64,000 bases of DNA from assembly GCF_014930455.1 (NCBI RefSeq), contig NZ_JAAIYO010000001.1:434001-498000 (forward strand). Direction: 5' to 3'. This DNA is from Corallococcus soli. Lineage in GTDB: Bacteria; Myxococcota; Myxococcia; Myxococcales; Myxococcaceae. Position 1 is the stretch's first letter, and every line of letters begins with the position of its first letter. Below, piece after piece: positions 16,071-61,357 of this stretch. The position numbers and the translations under genes are program-made. Under the pieces are notes generated by a model that saw only the letters and a program-made list of their open reading frames with translations, ran no database searches and was not told the DNA's origin.

Positions 16071-16420
16071 CGTTCCAGCCTCTTTTTTCCGTACCCGCGG
16101 TGTGCCCCTGCGGGGACGGGTCTTCTCGCTCCGGCATGACGCTGGAGGTTCAACCCGCCCGCTCCGCGATACGGAGCGTGGGGGTTGGCCTGGCGCACGG
16201 TTGGGAGGTTTCCCTGGATCCGGCCCGGTCCTTCGTGCACGGCAGGGGCGAAGCCTTTCCGGCTGCTCGCAGTGCCGGCGGGCGTTACGGAGGGGGACAC
16301 GCGGGCCCTGGCCATGTCAGCCTGCCGCGATAGTGAAGGGTAGGGCCGTGGAGCGCGGGGTGCCCGACCCCGCGGGTGGGCGGGCAGGGTGGGTGGGGAC
16401 AGGCCATGAGGTGGGATGCA
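16071..16420. other. Intergenic region before the topB-recQ fusion gene
   Basis: This 350-bp stretch separates divergent genes and must hold both promoters. I see no RNA gene, repeat or convincing promoter box. Open frames across it are continuations of neighbouring shadows. Confidence 0.4.
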
Positions 16421-19400
16421 ATGGGCGAGTCGCCCGGATGGGACAGCACGGTGGCGCGGGACGGTGGCGCGAACGGTCAGGCAGCTCGTGGTGGGCGGGG
16501 CTCCATCCTCGCCGTGGTGGCGGAGAAGCCGGCCGTGGCGCGCGACATCGCCCGGGTGCTGGGCGCCACCGAGCGCGGTGAAGGCTGCCTGCGCGGCAAC
16601 GGCTATATCGTGACATGGGCCCTGGGCCACCTGGTGGGCCTGGCCCAGCCGCATGAAATCAAGCCCGAGTGGAAGCGCTGGCACCGCTCGCAGCTCCCCA
16701 TGCTGCCGGAGGACTGGCCGCTGGTGGTGTCCCCGCAGACGAAGGATCAATTCGAGGTGGTCCGCCGCGTGATGAACGCGCCGGAGGTGTCCACGGTGGT
16801 GTGCGCCACCGACGCGGGCCGCGAGGGCGAGCTCATCTTCCGCTACATCTACGACGCCGCCGGGTGTCGCAAGCCGGTGCGGCGGCTGTGGGTGTCCTCG
16901 CTCACCGAGCGCGCCATCCTCGACGGCTTCCAGAAGCTGAAGGACGGCCGGGCCTACGCGCCGCTGGCCGACGCCGCCATGGGCCGCAGCCGGGCGGACT
17001 GGCTCGTCGGCATGAACCTGTCGCGCCTCTATACGCTCGCGAGCGGCACCTACGGGAGCATGCTGTCCGTGGGCCGCGTGCAGACGCCCACGCTGGCCAT
17101 GGTGGTGGAGCGCGAGCTGGCCATCCGCGACTTCGTGCCCCGGGACTACCTGGAGCTGGTGGCCACCTTCGCGCCGCGCGGCAAGGGCGCGGCGCCCGGG
17201 ACGCGCTACCAGGGGACGTGGTTCCGCTCGGGGCCGGACGGCAAGCCGGTGATTCCCCCGGGCTTCGACAGCGTGCGCGAGGCGCGGCGCCTGGACGTGG
17301 ACGGCGTGGAGGCGGGACGCATCATCGACCGCGTGAGGGGCGGGCTCGCGGCGGTGGAGTCGCTGGACGCGGAGACGAAGCGGATGCCGCCGCCGCTGCT
17401 CTACGACTTGACGGAGCTGCAGCGTCACGCCAACCGCCTCTTTGGCTTCAGCGCGCAGCGCACGCTGGAGGTGGCGCAGGCGCTCTATGAGAAGCACAAG
17501 CTGCTGAGCTATCCGCGCACCGCCAGCCGGCACCTGTCGCAGTCGGTGGCGGACACGCTGCCGGAGGTGGTGCGTGCCATCCAGGCGCCCTACGCGGAGG
17601 ACCTGGCGCCGGGCACGGGCGAGCGGCCCCTGGGCAAGCGCTACGTGGACGACGCGAAGGTGACGGACCACCACGCCATCATCCCCACGCCCACGCCCCC
17701 TTCCGGCGTGCGCCTGTCGCCGGACGAGCAGCGGCTCTACGACCTGGTTTGCCGGCGCGTGCTCCAGGCCTGGCACGAGGACCACGTCTGGAAGGTCACC
17801 ACGGTCATCACCGCGGTGACGTCCAAGGGGGACGCCGGGACCGTGGTGGACCGCTTCCACAGCGCAGGCACGCAGGTGGAGCGCGTGGGGTGGAAGGTGC
17901 TGGACCTGGGCGGAGGGCAGAAGGCGCCGCGTCCCCGCGCGGAGGGCAAGAAGGGCGAGGACAAGGACCGGGACGACGAGCCGGACGACGAGCCCCAGGA
18001 CCTGCCGCCGGGGCTCCTGCGCGGACAGGCGCAGACGGTGGAGGACGTGGAGGCGGTGAAGAAGCGCACGCGCCCGCCGCCGCGCTTCACGGACGCGACG
18101 CTCCTGACGGCGATGGAGTCCGCCGGGCGCACCCTGGATGAGAAGGAGCTGGCGGACGCCATGCGCGACACGGGGCTGGGCACGCCCGCCACGCGCGCGT
18201 CCATCATCGAGGTGCTGCTGGAGCGCGAGTACCTCATCCGTCAGGGCAAGCGGCTGGAGGCCACGGACAAGGGCATCCACCTCATCCAGGTGGTGCACCC
18301 GGACGTGAAGTCCCCCGTCATGACGGGCCAGTGGGAGGCGTGGCTCCAGCGCATCGAGCGCGGGCAGGGCGAGCTGGGCTCGTTCCTGAGCGGCATTGAA
18401 GCGTACGTGCGCGAGGTCGTGGGACAGGCGCCCGCGTCGCTGCCGCCGACCCCGGCGCAGTCCGGCGGTGTGCGGCCCCCGGCGTCCGGTGAAGGCGGCG
18501 TCCGGGGAGGCCCGCACCAGGACCCCGCCCGGGTGTCGTCGGAGGCGGGCCGCTTCGGCGGTGCTGCGTCCCACGGTGGAGGCGGAGGACCGGCTCCCGC
18601 GAACGGGCGCTTCGAGGCCTCCCGACAGCATCCCGCGCAGGCGCCCGCCGAAGGACTCTTCCGTGCCCGCGAAGCCCTGTCCGCCACGGGCGAAGCCCTG
18701 GCTCGCGGTGCCCACGAGGCCCGCTCCGGTGCCGCGTGGGAGGGGGCAGGTCCCCATGCCGTGACCTGGGGCTCCAGCGCGCCGCGCGACACCGCCGCCG
18801 GGTCACGCGATGCGATGTCTCCGATTGCAGGCGCGTCCATGGACCCCCGCGCGGCGCTGCTGCGGGGGCAGGAACCTCCGCCCCGGATTCCGTCCGCGGA
18901 GGTGCGGACCGCGTTCGTGCAGGCGTCGTCCGAGGGCTTCGGCCGGGCCAAGCGTCAGCCCCAGGGCGTGAACATGGGAAGCGGGCGGCCGGAGCGGGTG
19001 CACCGCGCGCCCACGCCGCCGAACCAGCTCCGGGGCCTCTTGAAGGAGGCCTTCGGCTTCTCCGACTTCCGGCCGTACCAGGAAGAGGTGTGCCGCGCGG
19101 CCACGTCCGGCGAGGACCTGCTGCTGGTGATGCCCACGGGCGCGGGCAAGTCGCTGTGCTACCAGCTGCCGGGCCTGGCGCGGGCGGGGACGACGCTCGT
19201 CGTCAGTCCGCTCATCGCGCTGATGGAGGACCAGGTGCTGCGGCTCCAGTCGCTGGGGTTCGCGGCGGATCGCATCCACTCCGGCCGCGACCGGGCCGCC
19301 TCCCGGCAGGTGTGCGCCGAGTACCTGGAAGGCCGCCTGGACTTCCTCTTCATCGCGCCCGAGCGGCTGGGCGTCCCCGGCTTCGGTGAGTTCCTGGCCC

Positions 19401-21298
19401 GGCGCACCCCCTCGCTCATCGCCATCGACGAGGCGCACTGCATCTCTCAGTGGGGCCACGACTTCCGGCCGGACTACCGGCTGCTGGGCTCGCGCCTGCC
19501 GCTGCTGCGTCCGGCCCCGGTGGTGGCGCTCACCGCCACGGCGACGCCGGACGTGCAGCGCGACATCGTCCAGCAACTGGGGCTGCGCGGCTCCACGGGC
19601 GGCGCCGCGCACACCTTCATCCATGGCTTCCGTCGCACCAACATCGCCATCGAGGTGCGGGAGCTGAACCCGGGGGCGCGCGGCGAGGCCATCCTGTCGC
19701 TCCTGCGCGACCCGTCCCACCGGCCCGCCATCGTCTACGCCTCCACGCGCAAGCACGCGGAGCAGTACGCGGACCTGCTCTCCTCGGACTTCCACACCGC
19801 GCCGTACCACGCGGGCCTTCCCCCCGCGGACCGCGACCGCATCCAGGCGGCCTTCCTCAAGGGGCACCTGGAGGTCATCGTCGCCACGACGGCGTTCGGC
19901 ATGGGCATCGACAAGGCGGACGTGCGCACCGTCATCCACGCGGCGCTGCCGGCCAGCCTGGAGGGCTACTACCAGGAGCTGGGGCGCGCGGGCCGCGACG
20001 GGAAGGACTCGCGCGCGGTGCTGCTCCATGCGTTCGTGGACCGGCGCACGCACGAGTTCTTCCACCGCCGCGACTACCCGGACCCCGCCGTGCTGGAGCG
20101 GCTGTACCAGGCCACGTCCAACGAGCTGGAGTCCAAGGGCTCCCTCCAGGCCCGCGTGCGCGGGGACCCGGAGGTGTTCGACAAGGCGCTCGAACAGCTG
20201 TGGATCCACGGCGGCGTGGAGATGACGCCGGACGAGGACGTGCGGCGCGGGCGCGCGGGCTGGGCGGTGCAGTACATCGCGCAGCGCGAGCGCAAGCAGC
20301 TCCACCTGGAGCAAATGGGGCGCTACGCGGAGGCGCACGGCTGCCGCATGCGGCACCTGGTCGCGCACTTCGGCGACCTGCAGGACTCCGGCGCGGCGTG
20401 CGGCCTGTGCGACGTGTGCGCCCCGGAGACGTGCGCGGTGGTGCGCTTCGAGGAGCCCTCGGCGGTGGAGGCCCACGCCCTGGGCCGCATCCTGGAGGCC
20501 CTGCATGCCCGCGACGGACAGGCCACCGGCCGGCTCCACCGGGAGCTGTTCGGCGACGCGCTCCACCGGCGCGACTTCGAGCGGCTCGTGGGCGGACTGG
20601 CGCGCTCCGGGCTGGTGCGCCTGGACTCGGACTCCTTCGACAAGGACGGACAGGTCATCCTGTTCCAGCGGCTGTCGCTGACGGACACGGGCCGCCGCGC
20701 GCGCGTCATCGCGCCCGGACAGGTGGTGCTCCCCCAGGCGCGCGAGGAGTCCCCCAAGAAGCGCCGGGGCCGGGCCTCCCCCGCGGCCTCGAAGCGGGCC
20801 CCTCGCAAGCGCGCGAGCACCGGGGCAGGGGCCACCTCCACCGGACGGGGCAAGCGCGCCGCCAGCACGGGCACGCGGCGCGGCGCCGAACCGTGGCAGG
20901 CCCCGCGCGTGGACCGGGAGGGCGCGGACTTCACCCAGGAGTCCTTCGCCCCGGACGCGCCCGCCCCGGGCCGGAGCTGGAAGGCGCGCACCACGCCGGA
21001 GTCCTCCACGGGCTCCCGGGCGGCGTCCTGGAACGCGTCGCGGCAGGCGCCCGAGCCCGGCTTCGCCGCGCCTGAGGCCGCGCCCGCCCTGGTGGAGTCC
21101 CTGAAGGCCTGGCGGCTCACGGAGGCGCGCAAGCGCAAGGTGCCCGCCTTCCGCATCCTCACCGACCGCGTGCTGGACGCCATCGCCAGCGCCCGGCCCT
21201 CCAGCGGCGCGGAGCTCCTGTCCATCCACGGCGTGGGGCCCGCCCTCACCGAACGCTACGGCGCGCAGATCCTCTCGCTCGTGTCCCGCCGTCGCTAG
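16421..21298 (+). CDS. topB-recQ: DNA topoisomerase III - RecQ helicase - HRDC fusion protein
   Basis: One 1,625-aa frame joins two enzymes. Residues about 27-670 are topoisomerase III: the Toprim motifs VAEKPAVARDIA and TDAGREGE, and the catalytic Tyr364 in LLSYPRTASRHL. An acidic insert lies near residue 510. A 190-aa Pro/Gly/Ala-rich linker follows (about 673-865). Residues about 866-1435 are RecQ: Walker A MPTGAGKS near 904-911, DEAH at 1003, the SF2 motif GRAGRDG and a Cys-rich zinc site (CGLCDVC). A Lys/Arg-rich linker leads to a C-terminal HRDC domain (about 1557-1620). The pair would unwind and decatenate recombination intermediates. ATG 16421 is chosen for GAGGTG 7 nt upstream; ATG 16406 is possible. 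No frameshift or stop interrupts the join. Confidence 0.9.
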   Translation: MGESPGWDSTVARDGGANGQAARGGRGSILAVVAEKPAVARDIARVLGATERGEGCLRGNGYIVTWALGHLVGLAQPHEIKPEWKRWHRSQLPMLPEDWPLVVSPQTKDQFEVVRRVMNAPEVSTVVCATDAGREGELIFRYIYDAAGCRKPVRRLWVSSLTERAILDGFQKLKDGRAYAPLADAAMGRSRADWLVGMNLSRLYTLASGTYGSMLSVGRVQTPTLAMVVERELAIRDFVPRDYLELVATFAPRGKGAAPGTRYQGTWFRSGPDGKPVIPPGFDSVREARRLDVDGVEAGRIIDRVRGGLAAVESLDAETKRMPPPLLYDLTELQRHANRLFGFSAQRTLEVAQALYEKHKLLSYPRTASRHLSQSVADTLPEVVRAIQAPYAEDLAPGTGERPLGKRYVDDAKVTDHHAIIPTPTPPSGVRLSPDEQRLYDLVCRRVLQAWHEDHVWKVTTVITAVTSKGDAGTVVDRFHSAGTQVERVGWKVLDLGGGQKAPRPRAEGKKGEDKDRDDEPDDEPQDLPPGLLRGQAQTVEDVEAVKKRTRPPPRFTDATLLTAMESAGRTLDEKELADAMRDTGLGTPATRASIIEVLLEREYLIRQGKRLEATDKGIHLIQVVHPDVKSPVMTGQWEAWLQRIERGQGELGSFLSGIEAYVREVVGQAPASLPPTPAQSGGVRPPASGEGGVRGGPHQDPARVSSEAGRFGGAASHGGGGGPAPANGRFEASRQHPAQAPAEGLFRAREALSATGEALARGAHEARSGAAWEGAGPHAVTWGSSAPRDTAAGSRDAMSPIAGASMDPRAALLRGQEPPPRIPSAEVRTAFVQASSEGFGRAKRQPQGVNMGSGRPERVHRAPTPPNQLRGLLKEAFGFSDFRPYQEEVCRAATSGEDLLLVMPTGAGKSLCYQLPGLARAGTTLVVSPLIALMEDQVLRLQSLGFAADRIHSGRDRAASRQVCAEYLEGRLDFLFIAPERLGVPGFGEFLARRTPSLIAIDEAHCISQWGHDFRPDYRLLGSRLPLLRPAPVVALTATATPDVQRDIVQQLGLRGSTGGAAHTFIHGFRRTNIAIEVRELNPGARGEAILSLLRDPSHRPAIVYASTRKHAEQYADLLSSDFHTAPYHAGLPPADRDRIQAAFLKGHLEVIVATTAFGMGIDKADVRTVIHAALPASLEGYYQELGRAGRDGKDSRAVLLHAFVDRRTHEFFHRRDYPDPAVLERLYQATSNELESKGSLQARVRGDPEVFDKALEQLWIHGGVEMTPDEDVRRGRAGWAVQYIAQRERKQLHLEQMGRYAEAHGCRMRHLVAHFGDLQDSGAACGLCDVCAPETCAVVRFEEPSAVEAHALGRILEALHARDGQATGRLHRELFGDALHRRDFERLVGGLARSGLVRLDSDSFDKDGQVILFQRLSLTDTGRRARVIAPGQVVLPQAREESPKKRRGRASPAASKRAPRKRASTGAGATSTGRGKRAASTGTRRGAEPWQAPRVDREGADFTQESFAPDAPAPGRSWKARTTPESSTGSRAASWNASRQAPEPGFAAPEAAPALVESLKAWRLTEARKRKVPAFRILTDRVLDAIASARPSSGAELLSIHGVGPALTERYGAQILSLVSRRR

Positions 21299-22978: not shown

Positions 22979-23300
22979 GTGCTCAAAGAGAAGCAAGAAG
23001 GCTGACCGGAAGCAGGACACCCCCCTGTCGTCTTCCCGGACGCAGTGAGCAGGGGATGGAAAGCCCAGTGCTTCAGGGCACTTGGTCAAGGGAACGTCAC
23101 GAAGGGTGACAACGGAGACGCGGGGGCGTGGAGTGAAGTCACTCCAGCTATCCCGCGTTTTCGGATTTTCTCCCCCTGAGAGGGTTTGTCAGGAACTTGG
23201 CCCGACAGTTGCTCAATGGGCCGGCACGCAGCTGCCGCGGCTGGCGGAGATGCCAGGCGGTGGCGGCGCAATCCCCCGTAGGACAGAGGAAGAGTTCCCA
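22979..23300. other. Intergenic region upstream of the protease gene
   Basis: About 320 bp with a locally lower GC content near 23150-23190. It presumably carries the terminator of the upstream gene and the promoter of the secreted protease, but I cannot assign boxes with confidence. Confidence 0.3.
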
Positions 23301-24116
23301 ATGCTCAAGTTCCGCTCTGTTGCGATGCTGGCCGGTGTTTCGCTGCTCGGTGCCGCCTGTGGTGGTCCCGAGTCCCAGCAGGAAGCCGAAGTGACGCCGT
23401 CGTGGGAGGAGTTCAGGGCGAGCGCCGTGCGTGAGCCGTGGGAGGGCGGGAAGATCATCGTCAACGGCGACGAGGCGCTGGAGTCCGAGGAGGAGCTGGC
23501 GGCCTACTTCCACAACGTCGTGGAGGCCAAGCTGGGCCAGTCGCAGGACGGTCTCGCCGTGTACTACATCGGCGGCGACATCAAGTGGAACGCCACGCAG
23601 AAGATGAACCTGACGTACTGCATCAGCAACAACTTCGGCGCCAACAAGACGAAGATGGTCAACGCGATGGCGAGCGCGACGGCGGCCTGGGAGGCCACGG
23701 CGAACGTCAACTTCACGTACCTGTCCCAGTACGACGCGTCCTGCACCGCGAGCCAGGCGGGCGTGCTGTTCGACGTGCGCCCGGTGAGCGGCCAGTCCTA
23801 CGTGGCGCGCGCGTTCTTCCCGAACTCCAGCCGCTCCGGCCGCAACGTGCTCGTGAACAGCAGCGCGTTCACCAGCACGGGCGCGTGGTCCCTGACGGGC
23901 GTCATCCGCCACGAGCTGGGCCACACGCTGGGCTTCCGCCACGAGCACACCCGCTCCACCGCGTCCGGCTGCTACGAGGACTCCCAGTGGCGCGCGCTGA
24001 CCTCCACCTACGACCGCGCCTCGGTCATGCACTACCCCCAGTGCAACGGCACCCAGACGGGCGACCTCGTGCTGACCACCCTGGACAAGCAGGGCGCCCG
24101 CGCGCTGTACCCGTGA
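23301..24116 (+). CDS. Secreted lipoprotein metalloprotease, astacin-like/M57 metzincin
   Basis: The 271-aa product starts with a lipoprotein signal (lipobox LGAAC). The extended zinc motif HELGHTLGFRH begins at H204 and the Met-turn SVMHYP has M243, both diagnostic of metzincins. The acidic N-terminal region before about residue 85 may act as a propeptide. Cys residues in the mature part (CISNN, DASC, SGCYED, QCNG) could form disulfides. It should be exported and cleave extracellular or surface proteins, in line with a predatory lifestyle. ATG 23301 follows AGAGGAAGAG. Overall closest in character to the myxobacterial M57/HEIGH-type peptidases. Confidence 0.85.
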   Translation: MLKFRSVAMLAGVSLLGAACGGPESQQEAEVTPSWEEFRASAVREPWEGGKIIVNGDEALESEEELAAYFHNVVEAKLGQSQDGLAVYYIGGDIKWNATQKMNLTYCISNNFGANKTKMVNAMASATAAWEATANVNFTYLSQYDASCTASQAGVLFDVRPVSGQSYVARAFFPNSSRSGRNVLVNSSAFTSTGAWSLTGVIRHELGHTLGFRHEHTRSTASGCYEDSQWRALTSTYDRASVMHYPQCNGTQTGDLVLTTLDKQGARALYP

Positions 24117-54390: not shown

Positions 54391-55053
54391 ATGCACGTCC
54401 TGCTGCTCTCCCTGCTGTTGCACGCCGCCCCGGCGACCCCGGTGGGCCCGGGCGCGCGTGGGGACCTCCCGCGAGGCGCCGCGCCGTCGAAGGCGGGAGG
54501 GCCGGCCGCCGGAGCCGTCTCGCCGGAGACCCGCGCCCGGCTGCTGCGACGCGAGGTGGCGCAGGTGGCGCTCGCGCAGGTGCGGGCCCCGGATGCCGCG
54601 TGGCAGCCCGCGCAGCGCGACTGCGCGGGCCTCATCCGCTACGCCTACCGCACGGCCTACCGGCGCGTGGCCTCCGAGCGGCTCGCCACGCCCCTGTGGA
54701 CGGACACGCGCGGCGCCCCCACCGACTTCGCGGACGCGGAGACGCTCCTCGCTCGCAACTTCACCGCGCTGGGGCGCGACGCGTCCACGCGGGACGCGCT
54801 GCGCACCGGGGACGTGGTGGCCTTCCGCCAGGAGCACGACGCGGGGCCCGTCTTCCACCTGATGCTCGTGGTGCGCCCGGAGGACCGGGCCCATGCCCCC
54901 GCGCGCGTCGTCTACCACCCCGGTGAGCGGGGCGCCGCCGTGCGCACCGGGGTCCTCGCTTCGCTCGCCACCGAGGCGCCGCTGGAGTGGCGCCCCGTGC
55001 CGGCCAACGCCGCCTTCCTCGGCTTCTTCCGCTTCAAGGAGTGGATGTCATGA
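54391..55053 (+). CDS. yfaT: YfaT-like protein (DUF1175), NlpC-like
   Basis: The 220-aa exported protein has a short signal peptide (VLLLSLLLHAAPA) and a DUF1175 core: C78 in RDCAGLIRYAY and H156 in PVFHLMLVV are placed like the Cys and His of NlpC/P60-type thiol peptidases, which cut peptidoglycan stem peptides. Family function is not established. It lies in the A2M operon and its stop overlaps the next start (ATGA at 55050). No Shine-Dalgarno is evident before ATG 54391, so it may depend on read-through translation from yfaP. Confidence 0.8.
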   Translation: MHVLLLSLLLHAAPATPVGPGARGDLPRGAAPSKAGGPAAGAVSPETRARLLRREVAQVALAQVRAPDAAWQPAQRDCAGLIRYAYRTAYRRVASERLATPLWTDTRGAPTDFADAETLLARNFTALGRDASTRDALRTGDVVAFRQEHDAGPVFHLMLVVRPEDRAHAPARVVYHPGERGAAVRTGVLASLATEAPLEWRPVPANAAFLGFFRFKEWMS

Positions 55054-56648
55054 CGTCTCCCGTGAGCCCGCCGCCGCCCTCCAAGGGGCCGGGCCCCTCG
55101 TCCGCGGTGCGCGTCGCGCTCGTCGGCGCACTCGTGGTGGGCGTGGGCGTGGGGGCCTTCGTCCTGGGCCGCGGCAGTGGCGGTTCCTCGGGCCCCGCCT
55201 TCTCCTCCGGCGAGCGCCAGGGACCTCCGTCCGCGGGCGCCACCGTGGAGGGCATGCCGGAGGTGCCGTCCGAGCCGACGAAGATGGACGTGCCGGACGC
55301 GCCCGCCACCGCCGCCCTCTGGGTGGACGTGCATGCGCCCGGCAAGGTGCGCGACGCGCTGATGCGCAACGCGTGGCTGAAGGAGCAGTGGGGCAAGCCG
55401 CTGGGACAGGGGTTCGTGGGCGAGTGGGCCCCGTTCCTGGGCTCCACCGGCGCCGACCTCAAGGCGTCCTTCAAGGGCGCGGTGGTGGACGTGGTGGCGG
55501 GGCAGCTGCTGGATGCTCCCTTCCGCACCGTGTGGTTCAGCGGTGCGTCGCGAGCGGGCACGCCCGCGCTCCTCGTGCCCAGGGCGGACAGGAAGTCCCG
55601 GGCCGCGTGGGACGCGCTGGACGGGGTGGCGAAGCGCGGGGCGATGACCGCGGACCGCTGCCCGGACAGCGCCGTGAAGGTGCCCGAGGGCGGCTTCCAC
55701 CTGTCGCGCTGGCTGGTCGCGGAGCAGACGGTGTGGACCGCGCGCACGGAGGAGCGCGTGGTGCTCGCGCGCAACCCGGTGGTGCTGCTCCAGGGGCTGT
55801 GCACGCCCCTGCCGAAGCTGGGCGCCAGCGAGGGCGTGGACGTGGAGGTGGGCTTCAACCCGGACGCCTACGGCCGCGAGGCGCAGCTGTTCACCCACGT
55901 GCTGGGCCTGAAGGGGAACGCGCGGTTGCAGTTCGGCGTGGAGGGGGACCGGCTGGTGGGCCGGGGCATCGCGGGGGCCGTGTCGCCAACCGCGATCCCC
56001 GACACGCGCCCCCTGTCGGACGACCTGCTGAAGCTGGTGCCGGAGGAGACGCCGGTGTTGTTCACGTTCAACCTGACGCTGCCCGAGTCGCTGGAGCCCG
56101 AGGTGCTGAAGACGCACTGGGAGGGCAAGAGCGCGCAGTCAGTCCGGACGCGCACGCGTCAGGTGGCCCTGGTGTGGACGCCGCGTGGCAACGCCTCGCT
56201 GGAGCCGGAGCTGGCCCTGCTGTGGGGCAGCGAGCAGGACGCCGAAGGGGTGCGGGCGCTGTTCTCCGGAGGCGCGCGGACGTTGAAGACCGCCACGCTG
56301 TGCAAGCACGTGGTGCTGGCCACGAGCGACGCGGAACTCGAGCGCCTCAAGAAGGCGTGCGAGGGCCGCGCGCCCAACCTCCTGAACGCCGCGGGCCCGG
56401 TGGTGACGGGGCTGCGCGAGCCCGCGTCGGTGATGCTCGGCATCAACACGGGGCGGCTGCTCAGCGGGCTCCTGATGGACGGCTACACGTCGGAGGCGCG
56501 CGTGGACCGCGCATCGCCCCTGCCCAAGGCAGCGCCTCCGGAAATCGAAGCGGCCCGCCGCGACCTGGAGTCCCTGCCGTACCTGGGGCTTCGCGGCAAG
56601 GTCGTGGGCTACGGCCCCGAACTGGTGTCGGAAGGATTTGGGACATGA
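55050..56648 (+). CDS. yfaA: YfaA-like protein (DUF2138) of the A2M operon
   Basis: The 532-aa protein has one N-terminal transmembrane segment (VALVGALVVGVGVGAFVLG) after a Pro-rich start, then a Gly/Ser-rich linker and a large periplasmic domain matching DUF2138 as remembered from E. coli YfaA: FVGEWAPFLGSTGADLKASFKG and repeated strand-turn units (ARTEERVVLARNPVVLLQGLC). Cys residues (CPDS, LCTP, LCKH, KKACEG) could pair. The stop overlaps the yfaS start by four bases. It probably anchors the system to the inner membrane. Confidence 0.8.
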   Translation: MTSPVSPPPPSKGPGPSSAVRVALVGALVVGVGVGAFVLGRGSGGSSGPAFSSGERQGPPSAGATVEGMPEVPSEPTKMDVPDAPATAALWVDVHAPGKVRDALMRNAWLKEQWGKPLGQGFVGEWAPFLGSTGADLKASFKGAVVDVVAGQLLDAPFRTVWFSGASRAGTPALLVPRADRKSRAAWDALDGVAKRGAMTADRCPDSAVKVPEGGFHLSRWLVAEQTVWTARTEERVVLARNPVVLLQGLCTPLPKLGASEGVDVEVGFNPDAYGREAQLFTHVLGLKGNARLQFGVEGDRLVGRGIAGAVSPTAIPDTRPLSDDLLKLVPEETPVLFTFNLTLPESLEPEVLKTHWEGKSAQSVRTRTRQVALVWTPRGNASLEPELALLWGSEQDAEGVRALFSGGARTLKTATLCKHVVLATSDAELERLKKACEGRAPNLLNAAGPVVTGLREPASVMLGINTGRLLSGLLMDGYTSEARVDRASPLPKAAPPEIEAARRDLESLPYLGLRGKVVGYGPELVSEGFGT

Positions 56649-59600
56649 AGACGTCGGTGCGTTTCGCGGCCCTGGCCGCGCTCCTGGTGTCTGGCGTGGC
56701 GCTGACCAAGCCGCTCTACATCACCGTGCCCCGCGCCTACGGCAGTGGCGAGCCCGTCGCGGTGGACGTCGCCTTCGAGGACACGGGCCCCGTGGAGCTG
56801 CGCGTGTTGCAGCCGGCGGACCTGGACGCCTTCATCCGCGCGCAGGGGGACCTGCGGCGCGCGTACCAGGTGCCGCCCACGCTCATCAACCCGGGCCGGG
56901 GGCTGAGCCGGGGCCTCAACGGGGTGCGCGTGCCCGGGCTCGCGCTGCTGGAGGCGCTGAGCCCCGATTTCCGCCAGGAGGCGGGTGAGGCGCTGCCGCC
57001 CCCGCCGCCAGGAGGCAGCTCGGGTGAGCCGCTGACGCAGATGGCCCCGGGGCCGGAGCGGCTGGTGGGCGCGCCGCCGGGCTTCACGGTGATGCGCAGC
57101 CAGTGGCTCAACCTGGACCTGGGCGGTGAGGAGCGCGGCTTCAACGTGCCGGGCTTCAGCGCCGGTGGCGGTGGCGGCTTCCAGGAGCGCCGCGTGCTGC
57201 TGGCCCCGCTGCCCCCGGGCGCCTACGTGCTCCAACTGGTGCAGGGTCGGGTGGAGGGCCAGGTGGTGCTCGTCGTCAGCGACGTCACCGTGCAGCTCAA
57301 GCAGACCGACGGCCAGGTGCTGGTGCGCGTGGCGGGGCGCGACCAGCAGCCCCGCGCGGGTGCTCGGGTGCAGGTGTACCTGCCCACGGGCAAGGGCCCC
57401 ACGGGCACGACGGACGACAAGGGCGAGCTGACGCTCGCGGTGACGGAGCCGCGCATCCTGGCGACGGTGTCGTCCGGCAAGGACACGGCCATCGTGGACA
57501 CGGACTTCTACTCCGCGCTGGCGGTGGCGCCGGACGTGTTCATCTACAGCGACCGGCCCATCTACAAGCCCGGCAACGAGGTGAAGTTCCGCGGGCTCGT
57601 GCGCCAGCCGGACACGTTCCTCGCGCGGCTGTTCACGCCGAAGAAGCGCGACGTGCGCGTGAAGCTGGTGTCGCAGGAGGGCCGCGCCATCACCACGCAG
57701 GCGGCGGTGGACGAGTTCGGCGCGTTCCACGGCACGCTCAGCGTGCCGTCCGACCTGGGCACGGGCGTGCTGCGCATCGAGGCGGAGCTGGACACGCAGC
57801 CCCACCAGGGCGAGGCGCGCGTGCAGGACTACGTGAAGCCCACGTTCTACCTGGAGGTGCAGCCGGCGTCGGAGACGGTGGTGCCCGGCCAGACGGTGAG
57901 CGTCACCGTGCGCGCGCGGCGCTACGCGGGCGGCGTGCCGAAGGACGCGAAGTACGAGGTGTTCCTCTACCGCAGCCTGCTGGATGCGCCCGCGTGGGTG
58001 GACGACGCGGGCAAGGGCGGACAGGGCAGCGCGGTGACGTACGGGTCGGCGTCCAGCAGCGAGGGCAAGCTGAGCGTGCCGGAGCGGCTGTACTCCTCCG
58101 TGGCGGAGCGCTCGGCCACGGACGACCCGTGGTCCAGCGCCAGCGAGTTCGACGCGGAGGGCGAGGCGGAGGTGGAGATCGCCGTCCCCGCGCTCAAGCC
58201 GGGCGAGGAGCGGCTGCCGTACCGCTACAGCCTCACCGTGCGCGCGCGGGATGATCAGGAGACGTTCGCCACCGGCACCGCCGCCTTCTTCCTGTCGAAG
58301 GTGGAGGTGATGGGCGTGGCGCGCTACTCCGACGCGGTGGTGGCCAAGGGCTCGGAGGCGCTCCTGTCCGTGCGCGCCACCACGCTGTCCGGCAAGCCCT
58401 ACGGCGTCACCTCCGGCGAGGTGGCCTTCGTGCTGCGCCGCGCGGACGGCAGCGAGAAGCCGCTGGGCTCGCACGCCTTCACCACCGCGCAGGACGGCAC
58501 GGCGCGGCAGAAGGTGCCCACGTCGGACGTGGGCGCGGTGCTCGCGCGCGTGACGGTGAAGGACAAGAAGGGCGAGGCGTGGACGGGCGAGGAGTCGCTG
58601 CTGGTCATCGGCGGCGCGGACGAGCCGGTGGCGCAGGTGCCCAACCTCACGCTGGCCTCGCTGTCCGGCACGCTGTCGCCGGGGGACTCCGCGAAGCTGG
58701 TGGCGCTCATGCCGGATGGCTGGGGGCAGGGCGGCAGGGACAGCGGCCCGGTGTGGGTGACGCTGACGGGCGCGGGCCTGTACGGCACCACGATGGTGCC
58801 GCTGAAGGGCCGCACGCTGGTGCACGCGTTCCCGGTGGAGAAGCGCTTCGGAAGCGCGGTGTACGCGTCCGTGGCGTACCCCACGGCGACGGGCCGCTGG
58901 GAGGAGCGCACGGTGGCGTTCCGCGTGGTGCCGAAGGAGCGCACCCTCACCGTGGCGCTGCAGGCGCGCCGCGCGGAGGCGCTGCCGCTCACCGAGCAGG
59001 TGGTGGACGTGCGCGTCACCGACCATGAGGGCCAGGGCGTGTCCGCGCAGCTGTCCGTGGGCGTGGTGGACAAGGCCGTCTACGCCATCCAGGGCGAGTT
59101 CCGCCCGGGCGTGCTGGACTTCTTCTATCCGCCCTCGCGCGACAACGTGACGAGCTTCTATTCGGCGGAGTTCCAGGGCTACGGCTACGGCGAGCAGCTG
59201 GCGCGCAAGCTGGCCGGGCTGCCGGACCACGCGTTCGCGTCCATCAAGCCGCCCACCCGGAGTGCGAAGGACCTGGAGAAGGACACCGCGCACTGGGACC
59301 CGGCGGTGGTGACGGACCGGGACGGCCGCGCGACGGTGCGCTTCACGCTGCCCTCCAACCAGACGCTCTGGGTGGTGACGGCGGTGGCGGCGGACACGTC
59401 CGGTCGCTTCGGTGAGGGCACCTCCGAGTTCGCCACGCGCGGCGGCCTCAACGTCTACGCGGCGCTGCCGCAGTTCCTGCGCGAGGGCGACGAGGCGCTG
59501 GCCTCCGTGCGCCTGTCCGCGGGCGAGAGGTCCAAGGGCAGCCAACTGCTGGACCTGCGCATCCAGCCGGGGGGCGCGCTCCAGGCGGAGGCCACCCAGA

Positions 59601-61357
59601 AGAAGCTGGAGCTGGGGCAGGGCGGCGAGCAGGTGGTGCCGGTGACGCTGCGCGCGTCGAAGACGGGCCCCGCCGAGCTGGCGGTGGACGTGACGGGCGG
59701 CAAGGACCCGCTGCGCGACCTGAAGCGCTTCGACGTGGCCCCGGCCTCGGTGGAGGACGCGGTGCGGGTGAGCGCGTGGGGCGGCGGGGCGCTGGCGCTG
59801 GAGACGCCGGACTCCGCGACGCTGACGCGCGTGGAGCTGGTGCTCCAGCCGTCCACGGTGGACGCGGCGCTCGCCAACGTGCGCGAGCTGCTGACGTACC
59901 CGTATGGGTGCCTGGAGCAGCTGGTCTCCACGACGGTGCCGAACGTGGCCGTGTACCAGGTGCTCCAGAAGGCGGGCGCGCTGGAGAAGTTGGATCCGGA
60001 GTCGCAGGCGCTGCTGGCGGAGGCGCGCAGCCGCTCCGTGCAGGGCACGGCCCGCATCCTGGGGCTCGCGGTGAAGGGCGGCGGCTTCACCTGGTTCGGT
60101 GGCTACAGCGAGCCCAGCCTGCCGCTCACGCTCATCGCGCTGGACGGTCTGGCGTACGCGGCCGAGGCGGAGCTGGTGGGCCGCGACGACGCGCGCATCG
60201 CGGAGAGCGCGAAGTGGCTGGAGGCGCAGGAGGGCCTGCCGGACGAATACGAGGCCACGCGCGCCTACGTGCTGGCGCGGTTGCAGGGGGCTCGGCAGGC
60301 CGCGCGGGTGCGGGCGCTGGTGGAGGGGGCGAAGCCCGGGGACCTGTACTCGCTGGCGCTCGCGGTGTTGGCCGCGGAGAAGGCGGGCGTGATGAAGGAG
60401 CCCGCGCTCCAGGCGCGCATCCAGGAGCTGGTGAAGCAGAGCGGCGAGGGCTTCGTGAAGCTCGCGAGCCTCAAGGATGAGGCCCAGACGTCCGAGGCGT
60501 TCTACCGCTTCCCGCTGCGGCGCGTGGGCCTCTCCGCCATCACCGCGCACGCGGCGTCGTTCGGTTCGCTGGACGTCACGCGCGCGCGCAAGCGCATCCT
60601 GGAGATGCTGAGCGAGCCGGGGCTGTCCACCTTCGACCGGAGCACGGCGCTGCTGCATTCGCTGTGGCTGGTGGAGCGCGACGCGAAGGCGTTCAAGGGC
60701 ATGACGCCGCCGGAGGTGAAGGGCGCGTCGGCGCCGGTGAAGTTCACGTCGCGCGGCATGGGGCTCGTCGCCACGCTGCCGGCGGGGACGCGCACGGTGG
60801 ACGTGGCCAGCTTCGACGGCGTGGCCACGCTGCGCGCCGCCGCGACGACGCCGCTCAAGCAGGTGCGGGCGCGCGTGGAGGGCATGTCCGTCAACCGCGC
60901 GTACTACGCGCTGCGCGAGGGCGGAAAGGTGAAGCTGGAGTCAGGGGCCACGGTGACGCAGGGCGAGGAGGTCTACGTGGAGCTGACGCTGGATGCGCGC
61001 GGGGACAACCGCGCGCGCTCGGCGTACTACGTGGTGGAGGACGCGGTGCCGGCGGGCTTCGTCGCGCTCCAGGAGGACAAGGCCTTCCGCGGTCCGCCGC
61101 ACTCGCTGCCGCTGGTGCCGGAGGCGCTTAAGCGCCGGCAGCTGGACCCGGCGCAGGCCACGTTCTTCTTCGAGGAGCCGGCGTGGTGGAGCGACAGCCC
61201 GCGCACGGTGGGCTACGTGATGCGCGCGCAGTTCGCGGGCACGTTCGCCGCGCCGCCGGCCACCATCGAGGACATGTATTCGGCGCGCATCCGGGGCCGC
61301 ACGGCGTCGGACGTGCTGACGGTGGTGCCCTCGAAGACGTCCGTGAGCGACCTGTAG
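56645..61357 (+). CDS. yfaS: Alpha-2-macroglobulin family protease inhibitor, YfaS type, thioester present
   Basis: The 1,570-aa exported protein has a signal peptide (VRFAALAALLVSGVALT) and the domain run of bacterial A2Ms: Gly-rich N-terminus, macroglobulin domains with RPIYKPGNEVKFRG near residue 310, a bait-like Ser/Asp-rich stretch, the A2M core (WDPAVVTDRDGRATVRF, near 880-930) and the reactive thioester motif GCLEQ with Cys1089 and Gln1092, then complement-like domains. A2Ms trap proteases: cutting the bait exposes the thioester. I recall that YfaS-type members often lack this motif, so its presence is worth checking. Coupled to yfaA by ATGA; the yfaQ gene follows after 2 bp. Confidence 0.93.
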   Translation: MKTSVRFAALAALLVSGVALTKPLYITVPRAYGSGEPVAVDVAFEDTGPVELRVLQPADLDAFIRAQGDLRRAYQVPPTLINPGRGLSRGLNGVRVPGLALLEALSPDFRQEAGEALPPPPPGGSSGEPLTQMAPGPERLVGAPPGFTVMRSQWLNLDLGGEERGFNVPGFSAGGGGGFQERRVLLAPLPPGAYVLQLVQGRVEGQVVLVVSDVTVQLKQTDGQVLVRVAGRDQQPRAGARVQVYLPTGKGPTGTTDDKGELTLAVTEPRILATVSSGKDTAIVDTDFYSALAVAPDVFIYSDRPIYKPGNEVKFRGLVRQPDTFLARLFTPKKRDVRVKLVSQEGRAITTQAAVDEFGAFHGTLSVPSDLGTGVLRIEAELDTQPHQGEARVQDYVKPTFYLEVQPASETVVPGQTVSVTVRARRYAGGVPKDAKYEVFLYRSLLDAPAWVDDAGKGGQGSAVTYGSASSSEGKLSVPERLYSSVAERSATDDPWSSASEFDAEGEAEVEIAVPALKPGEERLPYRYSLTVRARDDQETFATGTAAFFLSKVEVMGVARYSDAVVAKGSEALLSVRATTLSGKPYGVTSGEVAFVLRRADGSEKPLGSHAFTTAQDGTARQKVPTSDVGAVLARVTVKDKKGEAWTGEESLLVIGGADEPVAQVPNLTLASLSGTLSPGDSAKLVALMPDGWGQGGRDSGPVWVTLTGAGLYGTTMVPLKGRTLVHAFPVEKRFGSAVYASVAYPTATGRWEERTVAFRVVPKERTLTVALQARRAEALPLTEQVVDVRVTDHEGQGVSAQLSVGVVDKAVYAIQGEFRPGVLDFFYPPSRDNVTSFYSAEFQGYGYGEQLARKLAGLPDHAFASIKPPTRSAKDLEKDTAHWDPAVVTDRDGRATVRFTLPSNQTLWVVTAVAADTSGRFGEGTSEFATRGGLNVYAALPQFLREGDEALASVRLSAGERSKGSQLLDLRIQPGGALQAEATQKKLELGQGGEQVVPVTLRASKTGPAELAVDVTGGKDPLRDLKRFDVAPASVEDAVRVSAWGGGALALETPDSATLTRVELVLQPSTVDAALANVRELLTYPYGCLEQLVSTTVPNVAVYQVLQKAGALEKLDPESQALLAEARSRSVQGTARILGLAVKGGGFTWFGGYSEPSLPLTLIALDGLAYAAEAELVGRDDARIAESAKWLEAQEGLPDEYEATRAYVLARLQGARQAARVRALVEGAKPGDLYSLALAVLAAEKAGVMKEPALQARIQELVKQSGEGFVKLASLKDEAQTSEAFYRFPLRRVGLSAITAHAASFGSLDVTRARKRILEMLSEPGLSTFDRSTALLHSLWLVERDAKAFKGMTPPEVKGASAPVKFTSRGMGLVATLPAGTRTVDVASFDGVATLRAAATTPLKQVRARVEGMSVNRAYYALREGGKVKLESGATVTQGEEVYVELTLDARGDNRARSAYYVVEDAVPAGFVALQEDKAFRGPPHSLPLVPEALKRRQLDPAQATFFFEEPAWWSDSPRTVGYVMRAQFAGTFAAPPATIEDMYSARIRGRTASDVLTVVPSKTSVSDL

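Follow-up and report, generated by a model that had tools for sequence, protein, structure and literature searches.

The window analysed here is a stretch of 64,000 nucleotides from Corallococcus soli (GCF_014930455.1, NZ_JAAIYO010000001.1, positions 434,001 to 498,000). On its forward strand, positions 16421-21298 form a single uninterrupted frame whose ORF translation has 1,625 aa and a calculated mass of about 176 kDa. In this chain a topoisomerase III (TopoIII) is followed by linker 1, a RecQ helicase with its zinc site and winged helix, a disordered linker 2 and an HRDC domain. An earlier note on this DNA had described one protein of 1,625 aa, and indeed the frame is open from end to end and all the domains named there were found by Pfam. 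The features are as follows.

16421..21298 (+), whole fused gene, 1,625 aa plus stop; alternative in-frame starts at ATG 16406 and GTG 16376
16514..16900 (+), Toprim domain, residues 32-160, with D131-x-G133-x-E135 (Pfam PF01751)
16958..18385 (+), type IA topoisomerase core, residues 180-655 (Pfam Topoisom_bac PF01131, 341.1 bits; NCBIfam NF005829)
17510-17512 (+), codon of the catalytic Tyr364 (motif position)
18431..19024 (+), linker 1, residues about 671-868, ~198 aa (sequence comparison, composition)
18890..19036 (+), better conserved end of linker 1, residues about 824-872 (alignment of relatives)
19070..19558 (+), RecQ RecA-like lobe 1, residues 884-1046, with Walker A MPTGAGKS and DEAH (Pfam DEAD PF00270)
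19688..20002 (+), RecQ RecA-like lobe 2, residues 1090-1194, with motif VI QELGRAGRDG (Pfam Helicase_C PF00271)
20279..20419 (+), RecQ zinc-binding site, residues 1287-1333, four Cys (Pfam RecQ_Zn_bind PF16124)
20462..20698 (+), predicted winged-helix (RQC-like) domain, residues about 1348-1426 (structure model)
20747..21073 (+), linker 2, residues 1443-1551 (pLDDT under 50 nearly throughout; composition)
21086..21283 (+), HRDC domain, residues 1556-1621 (Pfam PF00570, 68.6 bits)

The gene may start at ATG 16421, ATG 16406 or GTG 16376, the last giving the longest version of the frame in the ORF listing (1,640 aa). The sequence AGGTGG lies six bases upstream of ATG 16421, another in-frame ATG stands at 16406, and MRW is found at the position of ATG 16421 in 13 of the 18 relatives compared. 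Since the region is GC-rich, long antisense frames run around the fused gene as a by-product of composition; three rows in the alignment of relatives (L253, L257, L260) were such antisense frames and are not used, and the conservation values of that alignment are somewhat low for this reason. Linker 1, put at ~190 aa in the earlier note, is disordered and variable as stated there, its length being rather ~198 aa (671-868), and a second disordered stretch ahead of HRDC (1443-1551) had been overlooked. Linker 1 is rich in Ala, Gly, Pro, Arg and Ser, and both its length and its sequence vary among relatives, with 22-338 aa in Myxococcota, 38-168 aa in Acidobacteriota and 6-45 aa in Bdellovibrionota. 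The ~50 aa that close it (18890-19036, +) are strongly conserved within the genus of the window, and this conservation suggests that they are possibly a short binding motif.

The fusion is flanked by a weak MFS match, an epimerase, a pyridine-nucleotide oxidoreductase, a lactamase-fold protein and a matrixin-like protease, and no repair operon was found around it among the ten neighbouring frames scanned. The matrixin-like metalloprotease frame (23082-24116, +) lies downstream of the fusion, beyond the lactamase-fold frame, and a 2,154-aa frame with bacterial alpha-2-macroglobulin domains occupies 54893-61357 (+). In the host genome (9.44 Mb, 68 contigs, 99.99% complete), a family search for type IA topoisomerases recovered two, the fusion and a TopA-like protein of 889 aa, and no separate topB. 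Three other RecQ-like frames of 703, 516 and 842 aa, distant from the fused RecQ, are present, so the cell has RecQ-type helicases besides the fused one. The question of whether the genome has separate genes for the two enzymes, raised earlier, is therefore answered differently for each half.

The motifs of both enzymes are in place. The TopoIII half carries AEKP at 34, DAGREGE at 131 and SYPRT at 363, which gives the catalytic Tyr364, and the Toprim acidic residues E35, D131 and E135 are all present; the helicase half carries MPTGAGKS at 904, DEAH at 1003 and QELGRAGRDG at 1185, followed by the zinc-site cysteines 1308, 1327, 1330 and 1333. The claim that all key residues are present thus stands for Tyr364, Walker A, DEAH and the zinc cysteines, and fails for the middle Toprim Asp: the triad is DxGxE, with Gly133, and not DxDxE, whereas E. 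coli TopoIII has a second Asp at that place. As the DAGREG Toprim motif also occurs in 48 of the 53 separate TopBs examined, Gly133 is a trait of the subfamily and not a defect. A variable insert of loop size at residues about 268-298 is a candidate match to the E. coli decatenation loop.

Family models agree with these assignments. The protein passes NCBIfam NF005829, bacterial topoisomerase III (657.8 bits, cut-off 597), TIGR01056 topB (555.1, cut-off 515.75) and the RecQ family model TIGR00614 (365.3, cut-off 219.8), and stays below the recQ equivalog TIGR01389 (453.7 against 640.2). By these scores the helicase half is a RecQ-family member outside the standard recQ equivalog. The zinc-binding PF16124 and the HRDC PF00570 are both above the Pfam cut-offs, and the Pfam RQC model has no match in the fused protein. 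By fold, a winged helix made of helices and a wing of two strands is predicted at about 1348-1426, in a model that aligns with RecQ cores through this domain. Aligned by sequence, residues 32-716 correspond to E. coli TopoIII and residues 871-1204 to the core of E. coli RecQ, and fold comparison extends the likeness to RecQ beyond the latter stretch.

An AlphaFold2 model of the window protein spans residues 800-1625 (pTM 0.65). In it, pLDDT is under 50 at residues 800-853 and at nearly all of 1443-1551, a very low confidence of the kind expected of disorder. Its RecQ half matches 4q48_B with Z 38.7 over 475 aligned residues (rmsd 6.2), which takes in the RecQ core and the winged helix. For the other half a homologue was used, whose TopoIII has E. 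coli TopoIII 2o59_B as best match (TM-score by target length 0.84); its near-full-length model (1,200 aa), built on a thin 17-row alignment, has a pTM of 0.51 and no confident docking of the halves. The proposal that fusion fixes the stoichiometry and order of the two enzymes is thus borne out as far as one of each per chain is concerned, and a fixed geometry of the halves is unsupported because of this pTM. According to these models, the TopoIII and RecQ modules are probably tethered and not rigidly docked.

Both enzymes appear to be maintained by selection. We compared the window gene with six relatives, giving the three close ones also apart. The dN/dS values for the three close relatives, with those for all six in brackets, were 0.07-0.12 for TopoIII (0.07-0.33), 0.04-0.15 for the helicase (0.04-0.20), 0.04-0.10 for the zinc site and winged helix (0.04-0.40) and 0.00-0.03 for HRDC (0.00-0.28), as against about 0.4 for linker 1 (0.35-0.54) and 0.33-0.58 for linker 2 (0.33-0.96). 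Therefore, both enzymes are constrained by purifying selection and the spacers are drifting.

The earlier note had suggested mapping the spread of the fusion, and the architecture proved to recur in three phyla. With the TopB family model and a match threshold of E 1e-100, matches were found in 92 of the 195 genomes searched from Myxococcota, in 44 of 396 from Acidobacteriota and in 23 of 290 from Bdellovibrionota, the last two sets being samples drawn evenly from larger groups. All the matching Myxococcota genomes, 43 of the 44 from Acidobacteriota (G439, with two fragments, was left out) and the Bdellovibrionota loci were then examined. A gene was counted as fused when matches to both TopoIII and RecQ lay in one frame and the RecQ match covered more than 380 query positions and included Walker A. 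On this count the fusion is present in 81 of the 92 Myxococcota (the window's own included), 10 of the 43 Acidobacteriota and 3 of the 23 Bdellovibrionota, and in 16 of the 16 searched genomes of the window's genus. A separate TopB is present in 7 Myxococcota, 29 Acidobacteriota and 17 Bdellovibrionota. Rows cut by contig ends (4, 2 and 3 in the same order) were taken as neither fused nor alone; among the cut rows, G106, G109, G085, G576 and G446 score in the fused range. Degenerate fusions account for two Acidobacteriota, and G034, one of the seven Myxococcota genomes with a separate TopB, has another as a second gene; G123 has a distant separate topB together with a fused-type RecQ frame running off the contig end. 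Many Acidobacteriota records are metagenome bins, in which single cases may be wrongly binned contigs.

Fused and separate enzymes are set apart by score as well. Against the window TopoIII, separate copies reach at most 435 bits in Myxococcota, 465 in Acidobacteriota and 378 in Bdellovibrionota, and fused ones at least 598, 559 and 426, which leaves a gap in each phylum; a degenerate copy, L234, scores 306. Besides the window's own fusion, 93 fused frames were counted, 18 of them reaching the edge of a locus or contig. Every one of the 93 has DEAH and motif VI, as well as Walker A, which is part of the counting rule. Complete motif patterns were found in 75 of the 80 other Myxococcota fusions; among the 80, three without zinc site and one without Toprim are incomplete at a contig end, and G082 has YPRA instead of YPRT, with the Tyr retained. 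HRDC is likewise present in 75 of these 80 (of the remaining five, four run into the edge of a contig or locus, and G032 is without HRDC) and in 9 of 10 Acidobacteriota fusions. The three Bdellovibrionota loci counted end ahead of HRDC, and L016, a longer stretch of one such genome, has it.

The covalent TopoIII-RecQ architecture is thus widespread, in at least three phyla among the matches listed, and probably old. TopoIII itself seems dispensable in many lineages, since 103 of the 195 Myxococcota genomes, including 69 of the 149 more complete ones, are without a TopB match at E 1e-100.

The history of the fusion was approached through trees of both halves. In a quick TopoIII tree (76 rows, simple model), the fused enzymes form one clade with an SH-aLRT of 100; L270 and L234 are long branches in this tree, and the rows L228, L183 and L194, labelled as fused, are cut by contig ends before or within the helicase. 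The only row labelled unfused inside the clade is the long-branched L234, itself a fusion with a dead motor, and two shortened relatives (G441, G481) also fall inside. For RecQ, a quick tree (77 rows) groups 34 fused RecQs and one unfused row, L015, at SH-aLRT 92. In a more careful tree (45 rows), the unfused Acidobacterial RecQs lie with some fused ones in an unresolved base, L015 is nested among fused rows, and the fused RecQs form one group in 0% of bootstrap trees. By these trees, the clade of fused TopoIIIs is better supported than the grouping of the RecQ half; some RecQs may have separated from the fusion at a later time, or there may be unfused relatives of the RecQ half that are of older origin. 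Sub-groups that appear alike in both trees (L192/L196, L229/L230, L240/L017, L016/L263 and the mixed L186+L204+L231+L232) are as predicted for the co-inheritance of one gene. Rows from Acidobacteriota are intermingled with those from Myxococcota, which makes transfer between phyla, or wrong binning in single cases, likely.

RecQ-HRDC genes of the fused clade also occur with TopoIII absent from the examined stretch, at L015:1867-3993 (+) and in L018-L022, and it is possible that these are later splits of the fusion. A topB-recQ operon was considered as a precursor and rejected: a RecQ frame was absent from the flanks of the separate topB genes examined, which covered mostly ~6 kb on each side in Myxococcota and Acidobacteriota (less in some cases where the contig ended) and ~1.4 kb in Bdellovibrionota.

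Three fusions (G441, G481 and G034) have kept the TopoIII motifs and lost the helicase motor. In G441 and G481 the remnant consists of RecA lobe 1 alone, in which DEAH has become EEAE and the aromatic loop is missing; neither lobe 2 nor anything beyond it is present, and the GxGKT core of Walker A remains. Between the two, the remnant has a dN/dS of 0.139 at a dS of 0.48, and thus selection appears to keep it. Both genomes have a full fused-clade RecQ elsewhere (L289, L290). The fusion of G034, known from one sequence, still has the motifs of TopoIII and the cysteines of the zinc site; Walker A, DEAH and motif VI are gone. At the level of loci, TopoIII with a lone RecA lobe lacking a working motor was seen at L185:5928-8621 (+) and L188:6028-8652 (+), from two Acidobacteriota, and L234:245-3619 (-) encodes the 1,125-aa TopoIII-RecQ fusion of G034 (Myxococcota), a genome that also has a separate TopB.

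Taken together, we consider it fairly probable that the fused protein is a natural single-chain RecQ-TopoIII partner enzyme that unlinks joined DNA, of which we infer the coupling, the substrates and the activity. RecQ would unwind or branch-migrate DNA, supplying single strands, and would hand the unwound or migrated DNA to the TopoIII of the same chain, which would pass strands through its own break. Linked duplexes, such as double Holliday junctions, hemicatenanes, converging forks and precatenanes, would then come apart. The flexible linker would give a high local concentration of both enzymes while leaving their geometry free. From our analysis, the open frame, the intact motifs, the sub-groups common to both trees, the purifying selection and the single clade of fused TopoIIIs speak for this reading, as do the recurrence of the fusion in three phyla and the absence of another TopoIII from the host genome. 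Unlinking chemistry of this kind is described for the yeast and human complexes of RecQ and TopoIII enzymes (PMC4109787, PMC3905885), including the dissolution of double Holliday junctions (PMC4109787). However, some observations speak against it: two Acidobacteriota have one-lobe helicases and a full RecQ elsewhere, fused-clade RecQs occur without TopoIII nearby, the host has three other RecQ-like helicases, many Myxococcota genomes are without a TopB match at E 1e-100, the homologue model shows no confident docking, and in E. coli it was RecG and not RecQ that acted with TopoIII in vivo (PMC13244152).

The remnants kept by selection in two dead-motor fusions give a hint, from their sequences, of a structural role for RecQ. 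RMI1 is not known from bacteria. A more far-reaching proposal, which we put forward tentatively and with the chances somewhat against it, is that the fusions are a clade of covalent, RMI1-free dissolvasomes whose dead-motor variants reveal that RecQ contributes structurally to strand passage by TopoIII, in a way that can be separated from its activity as a helicase. For Sgs1, such a role was proposed earlier on the basis of a mutant without catalytic activity, and the dead-motor fusions fit the reported result that Sgs1-Top3-Rmi1 makes catenanes with wild-type or catalytically dead Sgs1 alike (PMC4109787). The variants would be ready-made separation-of-function forms.

An alternative is that the fusion serves above all to bring TopoIII to replication forks or single-stranded DNA by way of the DNA- and SSB-binding parts of RecQ, the main job being precatenane removal and the finishing of replication and not the dissolution of recombination junctions. 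Precatenane removal is described as the sole well-established role of E. coli TopoIII (PMC13244152), two separate TopBs (L184, L237) have C-terminal tails with CxxC pairs in the place taken by RecQ in the fusion, and two dead-lobe copies are kept by selection. However, mere targeting would need no intact motor, and DEAH and motif VI are found in all 93 fusions with Walker A as against three degenerate ones, so that we regard this explanation as rather unlikely, though worth keeping in mind beside the partner enzyme.

The pair could also be in part two proteins in the cell, if an internal translation start or a cleavage yielded a separate RecQ or separate halves. Met852 stands directly ahead of RecQ, is kept in 14 of 14 readable rows of the same genus and has AGGG upstream; yet it is missing in 5 of 5 readable rows of other genera in the same alignment, and linkers down to 6-60 aa occur. 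This makes the possibility a slim one. A reverse-gyrase-like activity, that is, an ATP-dependent topological change such as positive supercoiling, is more improbable still. Reverse gyrase has the opposite domain order and no long linker, the varying linker length of the fusion speaks against rigid coupling, and the TopB and RecQ models were matched whereas the reverse gyrase model rgy (TIGR01054) gave only 94.4 bits, below its cut-off of 471.7. What speaks for it is that reverse gyrase, like the fusion, is a single chain with both a type IA topoisomerase and an SF2 helicase-type ATPase (PMC8185306).

The joining of two genes by misassembly or sequencing error, or a frameshift or chance, can be dismissed, since the fusion recurs in 80 other Myxococcota genomes, including single-contig assemblies such as G006, G010, G091 and G124. 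Among the fusions counted, an unbroken linker follows by construction from the one-frame rule. Nevertheless, no uncut TopoIII of the fused score range stands alone in Myxococcota and Acidobacteriota: the only genes of this range that end early, G441 and G481, still continue in frame into the helicase remnant. The stop or frameshift in the linker that the earlier note had raised against one protein was thus found between the halves in none of the uncut fused-type genes of these two phyla.

Both enzymes are known, and so is their partnership, though disputed; in the fusion they have a covalent TopoIII-RecQ architecture. No description of such a fusion was found among the matches listed from the open-licence PMC literature, a scope mostly outside subscription journals, nor does one appear in the passages of PMC6390638 on RecQ copies; domain databases may already show the architecture. 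In Myxococcus xanthus, the RecQ MXAN_1950 is reported to be raised by mitomycin C in a proteomic study (PMC12288472); it may or may not be the fused protein and is not used as evidence here. Found in three phyla and kept by selection, the fusion is natural evidence that RecQ and TopoIII cooperate in these bacteria. Moreover, contact or mutual influence between the two catalytic domains is named as an open question for the eukaryotic complex (PMC4109787), and the fusion is a one-polypeptide system in which to ask it.

Among known systems, stand-alone bacterial TopB shares with the fusion the NF005829 subfamily and the DAGREG Toprim motif, and L184 and L237 differ from it by their tails. The RecQ and TopoIII of E. 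coli belong to the same two enzyme families; they are separate proteins, presented in the relevant passages of PMC3905885 as interacting functionally and not physically, whereas the fusion is one chain. There, RecQ can modulate TopoIII in vitro, and the partnership in vivo is disputed, a 2026 genetic study concluding that TopoIII works with RecG and not with RecQ (PMC13244152); because of this dispute, a natural fusion makes the partnership testable. In the fusion, RecQ and TopoIII are physically joined, as far as one frame recurrent in relatives indicates. In layout the fusion resembles Sgs1-Top3-Rmi1 and BLM-TopoIII alpha-RMI, in which RecQ is preceded by a disordered stretch that holds TopoIII and is accompanied by a winged helix and HRDC, as in the fusion. 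Those complexes consist of separate chains, with RMI1 supplying the decatenation loop (PMC4109787), whereas the link in the fusion is covalent. As Sgs1 is reported to hold Top3 through its disordered N-terminus, ahead of the RecQ core (PMC3905885), the layout of the fusion looks like a covalent Sgs1-Top3.
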